DNA of 64,000 nucleotides from assembly GCA_018902385.1 (NCBI GenBank), contig JABSSW010000050.1:124001-188000 (forward strand), in the 5' to 3' direction. The stretch is from Physcia stellaris (Eukaryota; Ascomycota; Lecanoromycetes; Caliciales; Physciaceae). Under the pieces are notes generated by a model. It searched no databases. It worked only from the letters and a program-made list of their open reading frames with translations, and had not been told where the DNA came from. A program made the translations under genes and the position numbers. This document shows positions 595 through 46,188 of the stretch, piece by piece; the stretch's first letter is position 1, and every line of letters starts with the position of its first letter.

Positions 595-800
595 TGTTAG
601 CAGGAATCCTGCATCCTGCACCTTGCATCTAGCCGCATTGGTCAAACCATACCACATACCTTTGTAATTTTGTTGCACCTTTGTTGTATCAAATATTTGT
701 TGTTTGTTTTTAAATATTGCTTGTTCAGATGTAATACTTAAAGCAAATAGATTTCTTTCTTATGAAATAATTAGCAATACAACAGCTTTATCTATTAACA
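595..800 (+). repeat. 5' LTR of the copia element
   Basis: 206 bp, begins TGTTAGCA and ends ATTAACA. It aligns without gaps to the 3' LTR. Preceded directly by the target duplication TTATG. This copy keeps more CC and GG than the 3' copy. Confidence 0.95.
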
Positions 801-3800
801 GATTATGATTTCTCGATTTTGCGCATTGCACACAAAACAATTCTGAAAATTCTATTTTTTCAAGTTTTTTACTAATTCAATCGAGTAGCAATAAGTCTAT
901 TCTTTCATTTTTACGTTCTACATCGACATTTCTAAATTCATACAGAGCATTTCATTTTTCGAAGCATTCTCGTCATCATCATGAACGACGAGAAAAACAA
1001 TATTCATCGAATTTCGAAACTGCAAAATTCTAAAAATTGAACACAATGAAACAATGATATCAAAAGCGTATTGATGATTGCTGAATTCTGAAATTACGTC
1101 AGTGATCGTATTAAAATTTCAACTATGCTCGATCAATCAAAACAACGAATTTCTATCACAGACGCAATTGAAACAATTATCGTTAATGCTATTTTTATCG
1201 TTGAAAAATCTGATCAATATAATAAAATTCTCGTCGAATACGAAATCAAGAAAAAGATTTACGACGAAAAACATGAAAAAACACTCGCATATTTGAATTT
1301 CATCGTCGAGAAAAATTCACGAGCACATATCGCAAAATATATCAACGTCGAAAAAGCAAAAAATATGTTGAAAAAACAATACGAAATTTCGAATTTAGTC
1401 ATTTTGAACATGTCATTGCAAGAAATTTGCCGTACAAATCAAACTGACAAAGCCGATTTTGAAAATTATGCTCAACACTTGAAACAACATTGCAACAAAA
1501 TCAAAATCGTCGAAAAAAATATATCAAAATGAATGCTAAAAAGTTTTTTCCGAATGAGTTTATCTGCTCATTTTAATTTTTATGTTTTTCAATTAGTACA
1601 TTTCGTCAAAATCAACGACAAAAAACTTATCATCGATGACATGATGATTGCTTTAATGAATCAGAACAAACGTGAAACGTATGTTGACAACGTTGAAACG
1701 ATCAAAACAATGAAATTCAAATTCGTTTCGAACGAAATCACGTTCAATGAAATCAAAAAAAAACGAAAATAAAAATTTTGTAATGATTGCGATTCGATGA
1801 GACATGATGAATTCTATTGTTTTTATATTCATAAGCATTTACGATTCAAGAATTGAAAATCATATGAAATTAGAAAACATCTGATCGTCGATTACGAAAA
1901 AAACTTTATATCGATTGAAAACAACAAAAAACAAAACATCAACGATAATTCATCTGATAAAGACATTTAACAAAAAAACGATAAAATCAAACGAATACGC
2001 TCAAACTCGTTTTGTAACTTTTGTTGCATCACTTTAGAAAAGATCAGACTCATGAAGTCTCGAAATAAAACTTTTCGAATTCTCAGCATCAAACGAAGCA
2101 ATAATCATGCTAAGAATTTCGAATTTTACATGAATAGCGAAGTCGATTCGCATATGTGTCACGATAAAATTTTTTTTCATGATTTCAAATCGTTGACATC
2201 GATAAAGACGATAAAAATAATCAATGACGAACTGTTAATCGTCAAAAAAGTCGAATTTATCATTTTTGATTTCAACATCGAAAAAAAAAAAGTGCAAAAC
2301 ACTGTGACAGAAATAAAATACGTGTCGAAGTTTGATTACAATTTATTATCAACGAAAATACTTGAATTCAAAAAATGTGAAATTATTCAAAAACAAAATC
2401 GCATGTATGTCATCGACGAAAATGACAATGTAACGTTCATGACTGTTACACGTCAGCGATTTTCAACAAATAATTCATACGTACTGAATCAATGAAAATC
2501 GATTGTAATCAAAATTCGAATCATCAAATCATCGATTTCATGAATTCAATGACACAAACGATTCGATCATCTGAATATTCAAAACGTCAAAAAATTAAAT
2601 TTCATGAGATTGATCGACGCTGTCGAATGCAATAAATTTGAAAAGCTAAATTTTCAAAAAAAATGCGAAATCTGCGTAATAAATAAACAACATCGAATTT
2701 TCAATCGAATATCGATCAAAGCAAATTTTCTTAAACGAATCACTAAAAAAAATCAACGTTTTCATATCGATCTCGTCGAAAAAAATCGTATTGTACGTAC
2801 GTTTAAAAAAAAGCGCTATGTCATAGTCATTATCGATGACTATATCGATTACATTTGACTTTTTCTTATATCGAAAAAATTCGAACTCAAAATTGTGTTA
2901 CGCAATTTCATTTTTAAAATGAAAATTCAAAGCATTGTCATCGAATTCATTCGCATGAATAACGTCGATGAAAATATCAACAAAAAAATCGAAAAATTAT
3001 TCAACGAGTTCGATATTCAATTCGAAATCACTGTATCCGATAATTCTCATCAGAATGACGTCTCGAAACGAGCTTTTCGAACAATATTTAATCGAATGAA
3101 AGTTTGTCTGTACGATTTCAAGCTTCCGAAATATCTATGAGAAAAGGCGACGTTTATTGTCGTTTATTGCAAAAATATTAGTTTCATTTTCTCACTAGAT
3201 GAAAAGATATGAAAAGCAAACACTGAACAGTATTTTCATAAATATTTCATTTTTCACGAAATCTGACACGATCAGTCATCAAGTCTTGATCATTTGCATT
3301 TTTTCGACATTTTTTGTTATGCAAACAAAAACAACATCAAAAAACTAAACGATCAAAACGTCAAATGTCGTTTGTTCGACTATGAAACTTCTAATCAATA
3401 TTTTTTATGAAATTTACAAAAACATCAAATTTTAAAATCAATTCACGTCATATTCGATGATTTCACTCATCCGTCAGAAATCGAAAAAGAGAAAAATGAT
3501 TTTGATTACATCATTCTAAATTTCAATTTTATTAGCGAAATCAAAACAAACTATATCGCATTAAATGATCATAATACGATTGAAAAAATAGATGAAACTG
3601 AAACATTTGACGAAATTGAATCAGAAACTCATGCAATGAATTCTGAAATTGAAAAAGAAAATCGATTCGAAAAAATCTCGATTGAAACATCAATCAATCA
3701 AATTGCATCTCAAATGACTTTCTTCGCTGTTTTTTCAGCATTTCTTTTATCAATTCGACGACGTTCTGCTCGTCAAACTGAACTTTCATCAGATAATTTT

Positions 3801-5553
3801 TTTGATAAAATACAAAATTCATGAAATATTCGCAAAGAAAACGAAAAACATGCTGATTCAAAAACTTCACGAATTTTCAAAAACTTTGTCATCAAAATTC
3901 GAAAAGCACGTTTAAATGAATACAAAATATCGATTACATGAGCAAAAGTACAATCTCATTCCGATAAAAACAAATTTGTCGAAATCGCAAGAAAAAAAAT
4001 CAATCATCACATCATCAAAAATATCTGACGAGTCATGATATCGTCAAAAGATATCAAAATCATTTCTGATCGATGAGTCTTTTTCATAAAGCGAGACGTC
4101 GATGAAAAAATTATTCGCTATAAAATTCGCTGAATAACAAAAGATTTTCGTCAAATAGAAAAAATTGATTATTTCGAAATCTTTTTTGCAATCGTTAAAC
4201 TAACAATCTGAAAATGTCTTTTAGCATTTGTTGTCAAATACAATCTCGAAACTCATCATGTTGACATCGTTATTGCTTTTCTCGAAATTGAATTACAACA
4301 AAAACAATGAATTCAACAATCTGAAAGCTTTGAAAAGCATTCAAATTTCGCTTGTTTTCTGAATCGAATTTTCTACGATCTCAAACAATCACCTCGTGAG
4401 TGATATGATTGCTTGAAAAAATATCTAGTATTTATCGACTACATTTCTTTGATAATCGATCAATGCATCTTTATACATAAAAACGACATCATTCTGTCAA
4501 TTCATGTCGACGATATATTCATTATTGAGTCACAAATCGAAAAAATCAACGCTTTCAAAATATTTTTCGTCAAACGATTTCGAATCAAAAATCTAAAAAA
4601 AATGTCATTTTATTTGAGCGTCAAAATCACTAAAAATCGAAAAAATAAAACAATATGATTCACACAAATCATTTTCATCGATCAATTTATCGAAAATTGC
4701 GATCTGAAAAATTGTCGATTTTTCAGAATTTTCATGCAATCAATGAAGTATCAAAAAAACATGCACAATGAATTAATGTATAATGCTTCAATCGAAAAAA
4801 AAAAAATCTATTTAACGATTTTAAAATCATTGCAATGATTCATCACACAAATTCGATTCGATATCGTTTATTCAATCAACAAGTTGACACAATTCAGTGC
4901 TAATTCAATTCCGACGCACACTTGAATTTTACTCGACATTGTCAAATATTTAATAAACACTCGTTTGCTGAATATCAAATACGAATCATCAGAAAACAAT
5001 TCAGAAAATCTTATTGAATATATCGATGTTTCTTATGAAAATGACAAAAATACTCGAAAATTCCACAACGATTACATATTTTTTTTTTGAAATGAAACAA
5101 TTTCATACTTTTTCAAGCGACAGAAAACAGTAGCAATTTTCATCGTCGAAGTCGAGTACGTCGATGAGTGTAATGCAAATAAAAAAATCTGTTTTTTGAT
5201 CGAATCACTTCACGAAATAGAACACATCATCGAAAAATCTGTCGATATTCGAGCAAATAATCAGATCGTCATTAAATTGATTCACAATTTCGTCAATCAT
5301 TTCAAAACAAAGCACATTTCGATTCAATATCATTACGTTCGCGAATTGATGTTCAATGAACTCATCAATTTCATTTACGTTTCTATCACAAGCATGATTG
5401 CAAATGAACTCACGAAAACGTTGAAATCAAAACTTTTCAAAAAATTTGTAAATATGTTAGATTTCATCGAAAATCAACATCATATTCAGAATACAGAAAA
5501 ATAAATCGAAGTCAAAACTCAAAAAAGTAAACCGAAATCAGAATTCAAAAAAA

Positions 5554-5759
5554 TGTTAGCAAAAATTCTGCATTTTGCATTTTGCATTTAGTCGCATTGA
5601 TCAAACCATATCACATATCTTTGTAGCTTTGTTGCATCTTTGTTGTATCAAATATTTGTTGTTTGTTTTTAGATATTGTTTGTTCAGATGTAATACTTAA
5701 AGCAAATAGATTTCTTTCTTATGAAGTAGTTAGCAATACAACAGCTTTACCTATTAACA
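5554..5759 (+). repeat. 3' LTR of the copia element
   Basis: 206 bp, gapless partner of the 5' LTR and followed directly by TTATG (5760-5764). Most differences from the 5' copy fall in positions that are CC or GG there, with a few transitions in the other direction. Confidence 0.95.
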
Positions 5760-5764
5760 TTATG

Positions 5765-6279
5765 TTTCTAGACTCTGTTGTCTCGTAGTTTGTGAAATTC
5801 TCCTGTTTCAAAACATCCCCACTACAGGAAAAGTTTTCTTCTACTTACTAATTTATTGGCCAAGATACGATTGTACGCCCCTTGATGATTGCTCTGTGTT
5901 TGTTTGCTTGCTTTTCACGTTCCTAAACCAAACAGCCCCATCATGTCATCGATATAATTCAACATTCATTGAGTGACTCTATATTAGTGTCATGTTATGT
6001 TAGCAGACCTCTCACAATACTATGACACTCTTCCTGAATACTTCATCACATCAAGAGATAGCACCAAGCATTTTATATGGATAATCCAGTGATGACTGAC
6101 ATGATCACAACGTTGCTGGATCCCCGTATATATGGCCCCTACTCCGTCAATAATCGTATAAATTCTCAGTTCAAGTTTCTAAATCAACCATCAATCCACG
6201 AAAACCTCAAATTCTGCTAAACGTTCTTCCGAACTCTGAGACCTGATTCAGAATTTGCCGAATACCTGCAATTTAAAAC
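5765..6279. promoter_or_regulatory. upstream region of the three-repeat gene
   Basis: About 515 bp between the retroelement and the next gene. TATAAA-like strings occur at 6157-6162 and a TATATAT string at 6127-6133, about 120-150 nt before the ATG at 6280. The retroelement therefore sits just outside a likely promoter. Nothing else recognised. Confidence 0.4.
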
Positions 6280-7074
6280 ATGGGTAATCCAAACGCACGC
6301 GGCGGGCCTTCGAGTCGCGCTCCAGCTTCAAAGCCTGCTCAGCTACGTCCACTACCGGCACAGCCAATTCAATGTACGAATAGTGAATGCCGGGTCACCA
6401 GTGGCCATGAAGCCAAAAAATACAACGCCGACGACCGTGACTTACCTCGCATCGTCCAGGTCAAACGTGCCGCCTTGGACGAGGCCCTAGCAGCGGGGAA
6501 TCTCAACCAAGCTCGTTCCAATCGAGACTGGCTCCTCCGTTTCTACACCATCCACGGTGCCGAAGATGGATCCGCATTGGACGCACTTCCAGAAATTCCG
6601 GCGAAACCGACGCGTTGCTGTGTTCCCGATTGTCCAGTCACAGCATACCACATCAATAAGGTTTTTGCTGTAGGCGCTGAAGACCTCCCGAACAAAATCA
6701 AAACCGCTAATAAGGACTTCGAAAAGGCTCTAAACAGTGGAAATTACGAATATGCTCTTGATATTCGAGCTTTCTTGCTGCGATTCTGGACGGTGCACGG
6801 CCCAGCTGACGGGTCCGCACTCACCTCCATGCCTACATTACCTCCGCAGTGCCAGGACCCGTTGTGTCCGGTTACTGGGGAGCCGCATGCAGGCAAGGGT
6901 TTCAAGCAATGGGCGCGAGCTAGAGACCTTCCCCGGATTATCAAGGACTACGAGGCGCGCGTGCAAAAGGTGTATGATCGCTACGAGAAATGGCAGGACA
7001 TGGAGGAGAATAAGGTCCTCAATAGCTTCTTCGCTGTCCATGGCACAGCTACACATAATGCAATTGGAGCATGA
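6280..7074 (+). CDS. unrecognised protein with three tandem Cys/His repeats
   Basis: Single-exon 264-residue protein of unknown function; I do not recognise the family. After a Pro/Ala-rich start it holds three copies of a module of about 80 residues, beginning near Cys32, Cys113 and Cys191. Each copy has C-x4-C, then VT, a nearby His, a DLP..I stretch, a helical segment and (copies 1 and 2 most clearly) LLRF(Y/W)T(I/V)HG..DGSAL. The third copy ends NSFFAVHGT and is the most diverged. The C-x4-C with a close His could bind metal, but that is inference. There is no signal peptide or membrane segment, so a cytosolic or nuclear place is likely. The start is supported by the repeat register and by TATA-like sites 120-150 nt upstream. 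It lies next to the retroelement but has normal base composition. Confidence 0.75.
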   Translation: MGNPNARGGPSSRAPASKPAQLRPLPAQPIQCTNSECRVTSGHEAKKYNADDRDLPRIVQVKRAALDEALAAGNLNQARSNRDWLLRFYTIHGAEDGSALDALPEIPAKPTRCCVPDCPVTAYHINKVFAVGAEDLPNKIKTANKDFEKALNSGNYEYALDIRAFLLRFWTVHGPADGSALTSMPTLPPQCQDPLCPVTGEPHAGKGFKQWARARDLPRIIKDYEARVQKVYDRYEKWQDMEENKVLNSFFAVHGTATHNAIGA

Positions 7075-7723
7075 TAGTCCAGCCGATGTAGAAAGGAGCT
7101 ATGAAGCATATTGAAGCAAGAACTGTGAATTTGCTTGGTATACTTGGTGAAAGCGGTTGTACAGTAGCTGGTGGAAGACAGGACATAATTCTGATGAATA
7201 CCATCGTGGACCAAGCTGTGCCATATGTTATCGACATTTTCGCTTCTGAAAACCTTCGTTACAATCACAAATATCTCCAATCTTAGTTTTCAAACGAATT
7301 TTCCAATTTTCCATCTATTCAATCGAGAACGATGAGGACACAGGGGCGAGCACTCACGCAATGCTGCAAAACGAGATCTTCTGGTTCTTCGTCGTACATG
7401 CTCGCCTCGTGTACTTTTGGGCATAACCAATCTCATCTAGATGAGGCAGTATCTCGAGTCAGCAATACGCTTCAGAGAGCCACTAAACATTGTTCGAGTG
7501 AAAACCCTGGGAAATTTTCCACTCATTTGATTTCGCTTGGCGGATCAAGCGTATTGAAAGACCAATCATTTTTGTAGATGGCGTTTTGCTCAGAGGTTCT
7601 ATCTTATCAATGCCACCTCATATTGGATCGAGATCCTCTCACCTTGTGCTGCGTGGATGACGGTTGTGTACTCTACATGTAGCCTGGATCTTGAGAACGT
7701 CACTGTCCTGAGTACATCTGGGT
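7075..7723. other. intergenic, no gene seen
   Basis: Short open frames here lack splice logic and family motifs. It contains the 3' flank of the repeat protein gene and the 5' flank of the carboxylesterase. Confidence 0.5.
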
Positions 7724-9445
7724 TTGATCGGTATTATTATGTTTTGTGGGCTGCTGATTTTGTTATTGACTTCCACACATACTGCTTTTTCATGGCCTGG
7801 CACAGCTGATCCTGTCACCGACAATCACAATCCTGTGCCAACAGTAGATTTGGGATATGCTCGCTATCGACCGACTGCAGTGAATTACACAGGACAGTAC
7901 TATAACTTTTCCAACATTCGCTATGCAGCTGCACCCGTGGGGCCCCTACGATGGCGCGCTCCCCAAGCTCCGCCGAAGGACCACATGAGTAAAAGCGTCT
8001 ATGATGGCTCCCTTGGACACATCTGCCCACAGGCCCCGCCAAAGTGGTTTGTGCAAGCCAACAAGGCTTTAGGCAATTTGTCGGCTGTCATTGCACCTGG
8101 TGCATCTAGCCAAACAGAGAACGAGGACTGTTTATTTCTTGATGTTTTCGCGCCTTTCAAATTGTTTCCACGAAGGGGCAGCAAACGGAAGCCGGCCCCT
8201 GTTCTCTTCAATATTCACAGTGGCGGCTTCTTCATTGGCGAGAAAAGAGTCCCATACCCCCCGATCGGACTGCTCACGACTGGCAACAATGACTTTATCT
8301 ATGTGTCAACTAATTATCGAGTACGTCGTCTCTATACACATGATGTTGCTATGAATTGTTAAGACATCTAGCTTGGTGCGTTCGGTTTCCTTTCCCATCT
8401 GGCGCCATCGCCCTCCAATACGACATCTCCCAACGCTGGACTCCTCGACCAGCGCTTTGCTTTGAAATGGGTAAAGAAGTATATTCATCTCTTTGGGGGG
8501 GACCCCGGCCAGGTGACGATCACAGGCGAGTCCGCCGGTGGCGGCTCAGTTCAGTACCATACTGTGGCTTATGGAGGTGCGAAAGAAACGAACCTCTTCA
8601 TTCGGGGGATCGCACAAAGCCCAGGCTTGTGTCAAACAGACCCAATTTACCCAGCACTCGGCGCCGACCTATTCCTCCAGAATGCCGGCGTTAACAGCGT
8701 GACAGCAGCACGGAAATTACCAACCAAAATCTTGCAGCAGGCCAATATCAAGGCGCAAAATGCCACCCCATTCAATACCATCTACTTTGGCCCTACCGTT
8801 GATGGAGACCTCATCCACGATATCGTACCTCGGTCATATAATCAGGGGAAGTTCGTCAAGCAACTAAAGCTCATCGCAGGCAACAATCAGAACGAGGCGC
8901 GGTTTCTGGGCAACCAGACTATTGATACAAACGCTGACTTCGATAATTGGGTCTATGTCAATTTCCCCTCTGCTACCACTGCCATTCAGCAGCAGATAAT
9001 TAACCAGATCTATCCACCAATCTACGACGGCTCCCTGCCGTACACCACGCCGCAACAACGCAGTGATCTAGCCGTCAAGGAGTATTTCATCTCTTGCCAA
9101 ACCGTCAGCATCGCGAAAGCGTACAGAAACCTGACACACGACTACATTTTCGGAGTCGCCCCAGCAATCCATGCTCAAGACTTGGCTTACACCTATTACC
9201 CCAACGGAGTCACCCCTGGATTCTACCCCAATGTCGCTACCACACTGCAGAAATACCTCGTAAATTTTGTTTTAACAGGAAATCCCAACAAGGACAAGAT
9301 GAGTTCAGCGCCGTGGCCAATCTTTGGTCAACGCGCAGCGGCCGTCAACTTCACCGAGACTGGAGTTTCGCAGACAACATCGGACTCCGAAAACAGCCGG
9401 TGTGCCTTCTGGAATCAAGCGGACTATTACCCAAAGGCAAGATGA
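7724..9445 (+). CDS. secreted type-B carboxylesterase/lipase
   Basis: Two exons, 7724-8320 and 8372-9445, with a 51-nt intron (GTACGT...CTAG), give 556 residues, the usual size for fungal carboxylesterase family B (cholinesterase/Candida rugosa lipase fold). The N terminus is hydrophobic and looks like a signal peptide, so the enzyme should be secreted. Visible landmarks are EDCLFLDVFAP (family signature 2), the nucleophile elbow GESAGG with Ser253, a likely catalytic Glu374 in NQNEARF, and His466 in AIHAQDLAY, which completes the triad. Several N-glycosylation sequons (for example NYT, NFS, NLS) fit secretion. It hydrolyses carboxylic esters; the substrate cannot be told. An ATG at 7739 in the same signal peptide is an alternative start. 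No cluster partner is visible nearby. Confidence 0.9.
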
Positions 9446-45821: not shown

Positions 45822-46188
45822 GGGGGGTGGTAACAGGAAATATCAGGAGCTGGAAATTTACTCTCTCTTCAAGATCGGACGGTCCGCGGTATTTCTAGAT
45901 GATCGAAAATTATATTATCAACCTTTAGCCAGTAAGTATTCATATTGACCTGTGGAATTGCATTGCTGCGGTCGTCAAATCGTTAAATCGTCAACTCGTC
46001 AAATGGTGAAAGGTGAAAACGATTACTGATTTGCATGTGCTCGTGGATCGGCGCCGTTGCTGCCGAGGCGCTAGGAACCCTGATCGAGCATGCGGGCGGA
46101 GACTGGCCTCGTGCAAGTCGAGCTCCTTGTCAACTCAATTGAAGCGGGCTCTGATTCCAAAGTGACCTGCTGCTCTTGTATCGCAGCA
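45822..46188. promoter_or_regulatory. divergent promoter of ELP3 and LSC1 with CGTCAAAT repeats
   Basis: 367 bp between the two starts. At 45974-46006 a unit like TCGTCAAATCGTTAAATCG is repeated about four times with small changes. No TATA box noticed. The unit could be a local minisatellite or a cluster of binding sites. Confidence 0.5.

Follow-up and report, generated by a model that had tools for sequence, protein, structure and literature searches.

What kind of process leaves a retrotransposon almost free of CC and GG while CA, TG and CG remain common? The question is raised by a Ty1/Copia element of Physcia stellaris, 5,165 bp long and recognised as such by its two long terminal repeats (LTRs), its target-site duplication (TSD) and its RVT_2 domain, which lies at positions 595-5759 of a stretch of 64,000 nucleotides (contig JABSSW010000050.1, positions 124,001 to 188,000 of the forward strand), hereafter the window. 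The analysis of the window and of the assembly around it (43.97 Mb in 147 contigs, the one genome on which the conclusion rests) argues that the element was probably struck by a repeat-directed C-to-T hypermutation resembling repeat-induced point mutation (RIP), acting on both strands and governed by a rule of C followed by a 3' pyrimidine, in the order CpC > CpT >> CpA > CpG.

The base composition of the element gives the first outline of this rule. Over the interior (801-5553, + strand, 4,753 bp, GC 0.287), the + strand holds 11 CC and a single GG (rho 0.06), with CT/AG at a rho of 0.53, CA/TG at 1.27, CG at 2.42 and TC/GA at 1.57, and 9 of the 11 surviving CC belong to CCG. An earlier note made from the letters alone had read all of this correctly, namely the near-absence of CC and GG with CA, TG and CG retained, the abundance of TC and GA, the CCG context of the remaining CC and an excess of ApT over TpA, so that the standard RIP index misses the element. 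Indeed, ApT is counted 612 times and TpA 249 times, i.e. a TpA/ApT ratio of 0.41 (0.64 for the entire window), and since the RIPCAL cut-off for RIP is at least 0.89 (PMC2621366), standard indices would call the element unmutated. ApT exceeds TpA in host DNA as well, and the ratio (CpA+TpG)/(ApC+GpT) in the interior is 1.56. When C/(C+T) is taken by the 3' base A, C, G or T on both strands, the interior gives 0.55, 0.02, 0.43 and 0.15, against 0.61, 0.45, 0.45 and 0.50 in the host DNA at 5760-64000; in other words, CpC is nearly lost and CpT mostly lost from the interior, with CpA and CpG at about the host level. Binned at 400 bp, CpC fractions of 0.53 and 0.43 upstream of position 801 (the second bin taking in the 5' LTR) drop to 0.00-0.05 for 801-5600, then reach 0.29 for 5601-6000, a mixed bin, and 0.31-0.52 for 6001-8000. 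The change in composition spans the interior and the 3' LTR, and single-copy host DNA is spared, both in these bins and in the 58 kb of window flanks, where the host flank at 5765-64000 serves as unmutated control (CpC fraction of 0.45, calculated over 5760-64000).

The direction of change and the sequence rule come from aligned copies, for which the less-mutated copy in each of three Copia families was taken as reference (L027 and L028 among them), giving 18 pairs whose totals were added by hand over sites that are not independent, as copies share ancestry. C has turned into T at 3896 of 4047 CpC sites (96.3%) and 4553 of 5508 CpT sites (82.7%), against 482 of 7182 CpA sites (6.7%, ranging from 1 to 20% per pair) and 153 of 5847 CpG sites (2.6%); T-to-C changes amount to 0-4% and C-to-A/G changes to <2%. 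The earlier note had proposed a CpC-directed C-to-T process, and CpC does lead, but the rule has to be widened to C then pyrimidine, CpT being attacked as well. CpA-to-TpA is clearly not the main context, and the less-mutated copies do not lack CC or GG themselves, the two references named above carrying 457 (L027) and 241 (L028) aligned CpC sites. Decay of CpG, or a process of the type of methylation induced premeiotically (MIP) in which CpG is the main target, is rejected, CpG being the least-affected context. Regarding the wider neighbourhood, which was considered together with CCG in 16 of the 18 pairs (L048 and L056 omitted), the rates at CpC and CpT vary by no more than about 0.1 with the base at -2, -1, +2 or +3. 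In the same 16 pairs 811 of 826 CCG sites are mutated, which rules out CCG as a protected context.

This dependence on the 3' base bears on two further agents, ultraviolet (UV) damage and AID/APOBEC-type deaminases, both of which yield C-to-T changes with pyrimidine neighbours and follow rules that depend mainly on the 5' base. In the L027 family, TCA (30/360 mutated) and CCA (34/418) are spared but ACC (330/349) and GCC (317/340) are affected, so that neither agent is at all a probable source of the pattern. A search of the genome for PF08210 (AID/APOBEC) gave no match and, as the control was without match too, is uninformative.

The lightest pair, L028/L034, shows the tempo of the process. 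On its + strand, 446 C-to-T plus G-to-A changes stand against 15 other changes, with one transversion among these, and the process is burst-like, since a slow one would have left more of the other changes. Estimated doses for this pair are 2.78 for CpC, 0.92 for CpT and 0.013 for CpA, none being seen for CpG (0/343); the difference between CpC and CpA is thus about 200-fold. As a separate observation, the changes on the + strand of this pair are uneven, with 293 C-to-T and 153 G-to-A.

A control that is independent of any transposon copy, because the conserved letters are known from Rfam, is offered by ribosomal DNA (rDNA). A hypermutated rDNA copy (L070, contig 41, around the 5.8S match at 45899-46052) comprises the end of the small-subunit (SSU) gene, the internal transcribed spacer, 5.8S and the start of the large-subunit (LSU) gene. 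Of 2644 candidates for 5.8S in the assembly, 39 were scored; the single match reported sits in this mutated copy, and functional rDNA is either absent from the assembly or outside the scored set. Uppercase consensus positions were scored in 9 chosen blocks, with four other informative SSU blocks added afterwards; two variable LSU blocks were without uppercase letters, and the remaining LSU lies outside the count. In the 9 blocks, C-to-T changes affect CpC at 24/26, CpU at 16/32, CpA at 0/24 and CpG at 0/28 sites, with A/U changed to G/C at 2/209; with the four SSU blocks included, the counts are 29/35, 20/39, 1/33 and 0/36, respectively. The same contexts are thus hit and spared as in the Copia pairs. 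It is here that the other explanation offered by the earlier note, ordinary CpA-directed RIP of elements that were AT-rich from the start, can be judged: low GC alone would suit it, but it fails on the 18 copy pairs and on this rDNA copy with known conserved letters, as CpA change is low in both and TpA is low instead of high, which reduces its probability to next to nothing.

The same depletion recurs across element families, as the earlier note had asked of a genuine C-to-T process at CpC. With a filter of GC <0.32 and fractions pooled over whole loci, flanks included, 21 of the 30 fetched Copia loci give C/(C+T) values before A, C, G and T of 0.54, 0.06, 0.46 and 0.10, and 4 of the 10 DDE_1 loci, which we take to be Tc1/mariner-type, give 0.525, 0.002, 0.49 and 0.09. 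Two mutated RVT_1 loci have CpC fractions of 0.01 and 0.00 (for one of them, L067, Pfam on the open fragments gave no informative family). The third (L069), Gypsy-like by its domains RVT_1, RNase H and Integrase_H2C2, is unmutated with a CpC fraction of 0.49 and, like the reference Copia copies, does not lack CC or GG. The nine Copia loci above the GC limit include five near host composition or mildly changed (L027, L028, L030, L031 and L042) and four depleted in CC (L029, L034, L039 and L054, rho 0.11-0.45). In-frame stops, transcribed by hand from the profile matches, carry the same imprint: TGA, TAG and TAA number 401, 3 and 101 in 137 RVT_2 matches, 250, 3 and 33 in 150 RVT_1 matches (150 of 527 candidates scored) and 44, 0 and 3 in 10 DDE_1 matches. 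An excess of TGA is expected where CpC attack turns TGG into TGA, and TAG, the expected product of CpA attack on TGG or CAG, is nearly absent from the matches. In the window element itself, the remnant of the Copia reverse transcriptase (PF07727, positions 4026-4721, + strand, i.e. 128026-128721 in contig positions, E 7.7e-34) has 7 in-frame TGA, 0 TAG and 0 TAA.

The anatomy of the window element adds a comparison between two sequences of common origin within the window. The TSD TTATG closes the left flank (590-594) and opens the right flank (5760-5764), and between them the interior, whose two strands are both hypermutated at CpC and CpT, is framed by the 5' LTR (595-800) and the 3' LTR (5554-5759), both on the + strand, both of 206 bp, starting with TGTTAG and ending with TTAACA (TG...CA), and 90% identical to each other. 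They differ at 20 of 206 sites, transitions throughout; the earlier estimate of about 20 was exact, and its statement that most changes fall at CC or GG proves half right, in that, with C taken as ancestral and the contexts tallied by eye, 10 lie at CpC and an equal 10 at CpT, with 0 at CpA and 0 at CpG. Pooled over both copies and both strands, changes concern 20 of 52 sites where C precedes a pyrimidine and 0 of 72 where it precedes a purine (Fisher p = 2e-9). The nearest related LTR (L002, contig 2), aligned over 199 of the 206 bp, has 10 counted changes relative to the 5' LTR and 18 relative to the 3' LTR, all at CpC or CpT and with 0 transversions; in the more diverged LTRs (L003, L017 and L018), CpA changes and transversions appear too, as is expected from their age. 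The two LTRs of the window element are also unequally mutated, the 5' LTR being hardly mutated at CpC (10/23 remaining as C) and the 3' LTR mostly so (2/17 left).

Several observations weigh against a RIP-like process with this rule. The presumed dependence on repeats is read from which DNA is affected. CpC sites persist in the 5' LTR of the Copia element in the window, although its interior lost them. This interior is without a close relative: the relatives compared are 61-65% identical, differ from it at 17/23 CpC, 292/435 CpT, 297/1130 CpA and 314/1032 CpG sites, and are too old and diverged to yield a clean context count or direction. In the most mutated pair (L056), CpA change reaches 77/379; as the heavier copies show more CpA change, CpA can be regarded as a weak side target. 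Stops of the TAA type, which are CpA-type products, are not rare (62 of 137 Copia match rows), so that some CpA-type change is needed. In the rDNA copy, one badly aligned SSU block fits the conserved letters poorly, with 1 of 5 CpA changed to T and 3 to A/G, and six C-to-A/G mismatches, G changes being counted as complements. Finally, three Copia copies that form one family (L030, L031 and L042; 95-97% identity, long open frames) show no hypermutation: the C/T differences between them fall at C before pyrimidine in 39/67, 35/71 and 42/78 cases, none significantly above the baseline of 47.7% of C sites in this context (p 0.09, 0.81 and 0.31), and in one pair the spread over the contexts C, T, A and G is 20, 19, 15 and 13. 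The process is therefore not acting on every repeat now, and these copies either escaped it or arrived after it had stopped, or the process is inactive now.

These points notwithstanding, a RIP-like process remains the probable reading, and candidate enzymes of the types that the earlier note had suggested looking for are encoded in the genome: PF00145 matches three genes, two RID/Masc1-like and one DIM-2-like. The RID-like assignment is made by the motif VI triads, which are EET in L023 and EQT in L025, EQT or EET instead of ENV being the mark of the Masc1/RID group, and the EET triad being reported for the RID of B. cinerea and P. destructans (PMC6709928). Two such genes, one of the EET type and one of the EQT type, thus coexist within one genome, and their proteins are 40% identical across 174 residues of the catalytic part. 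The two frame breaks of L023 lie within GT...AG stretches, which suggests introns in an otherwise intact gene. The DIM-2-like gene (L024) has DUF7893, a BAH match that falls short of the cut-off, and a match to PDB 9bap (E 2e-181), listed as DNA (cytosine-5-)-methyltransferase and presumably DIM-2 itself. None of the three genes resembles DNMT5, for which no specific search was made. M.HaeIII, the best PDB match of L025, has a target in which C is followed by C, but was set aside as a clue to specificity, the match being to the N-terminal catalytic half and not to the target-recognition part.

Since the rule depends on the base that follows C, which is also what CpN methyltransferases read, the actor would be an enzyme of the C5-cytosine-methyltransferase type that recognises the 3' neighbour of its target C on encountering repeats. 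A RID-type enzyme whose target recognition has changed is the likeliest candidate, but the present data do not separate it from DIM-2. A fuller version, in which the repeat defence of this lineage was re-aimed by a shift of RID-type 3'-base recognition from CpA to pyrimidine (CpC/CpT), perhaps via the EET-type RID paralogue, is put forward tentatively, at somewhat less than an even chance. It competes with DIM-2 as the mutator, whereby heterochromatic repeats would be methylated at CpC and CpT and the methylcytosines would turn into T, mitotically or before meiosis. A DIM-2-like gene is present, and N. crassa DIM-2 prefers CpT whereas Z. tritici dim2 promotes mitotic C-to-T change at CpA (PMC8016269, PMC13297926), so that the context preference of DIM-2 varies between species. 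Yet the 446:15 ratio of the lightest pair speaks against slow deamination alone, and the literature examined gave no instance of DIM-2 preferring CpC; DIM-2 is held to be a rather unlikely mutator. While RIP is known and looked for chiefly as CpA-to-TpA change, here CpC is erased near saturation with CpA at about the host level. If RID was indeed re-aimed, the specificity of RIP would reside in the target-recognition part of the enzyme as a property open to evolution, and such lineages would have been missed by RIP surveys based on CpA/TpA indices. With a sharp dinucleotide rule and three candidate methyltransferase genes, the determinant of RIP specificity becomes directly testable.

How does this compare with what is on record? 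A fungal survey of 2025 (k-mer screen of 1,239 species) describes RIP-like defences as sharing a CpA preference (PMC12543289), and no genome in which RIP falls mainly on CpC and spares CpA was found in the literature examined, which did not cover the Clutterbuck 2011 survey. CpT-biased signatures are reported for Magnaporthe, Botrytis and Sclerotinia (PMC4352252), for N. crassa Tad1 by RIPCAL (PMC2621366) and for LARD (large retrotransposon derivative) elements of RIP-capable control fungi (PMC7882544), where they occur with CpA or are dominant in alignments; the term CpC does not appear in PMC4352252 or PMC7882544. The likeness to these lies in CpT as main or secondary target and in RID class I genes where tested, but whereas CpT goes with CpA in the signatures of PMC4352252 and PMC2621366, the present pattern is led by CpC and spares CpA. 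In Monilinia, CpC-to-TpT double changes are described beside classical CpA-to-TpA (PMC8959702); CpC is changed there too, but alongside the CpA that is spared here. The CpG-biased signatures of A. nidulans, M. violaceum (TpCpG) and T. melanosporum (PMC4352252, PMC2621366) are likewise repeat-biased, non-CpA C-to-T changes, but CpG is the least affected context here. In Rhizoctonia solani, heterozygous single-nucleotide polymorphisms of the CpC type are denser than those of the CpA type (spacing of 214 vs. 422 bp genome-wide), in genes and repeats alike, a bias interpreted by its authors as CpG.

The closest yardstick is RIP itself, for which the order of preference is CpA>CpT>CpG>CpC in N. crassa, with CpA~CpG and CpC last in T. 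reesei (PMC5496416). Of RIP in the broad sense, three features are found here, namely C:G to T:A changes on both strands in repeats, host DNA of the window spared and a RID homologue by motif VI; those of canonical RIP, with CpA as main target and TpA raised, are not. Like N. crassa RIP, the process affects repeats of several kinds (RVT_2, RVT_1 and DDE_1 elements, and rDNA), in a heavy burst and in a genome with RID- and DIM-2-like genes; unlike it, the preference is nearly reversed, CpC>CpT>>CpA>CpG. In other words, it works like RIP and differs from canonical RIP in the specificity tested.

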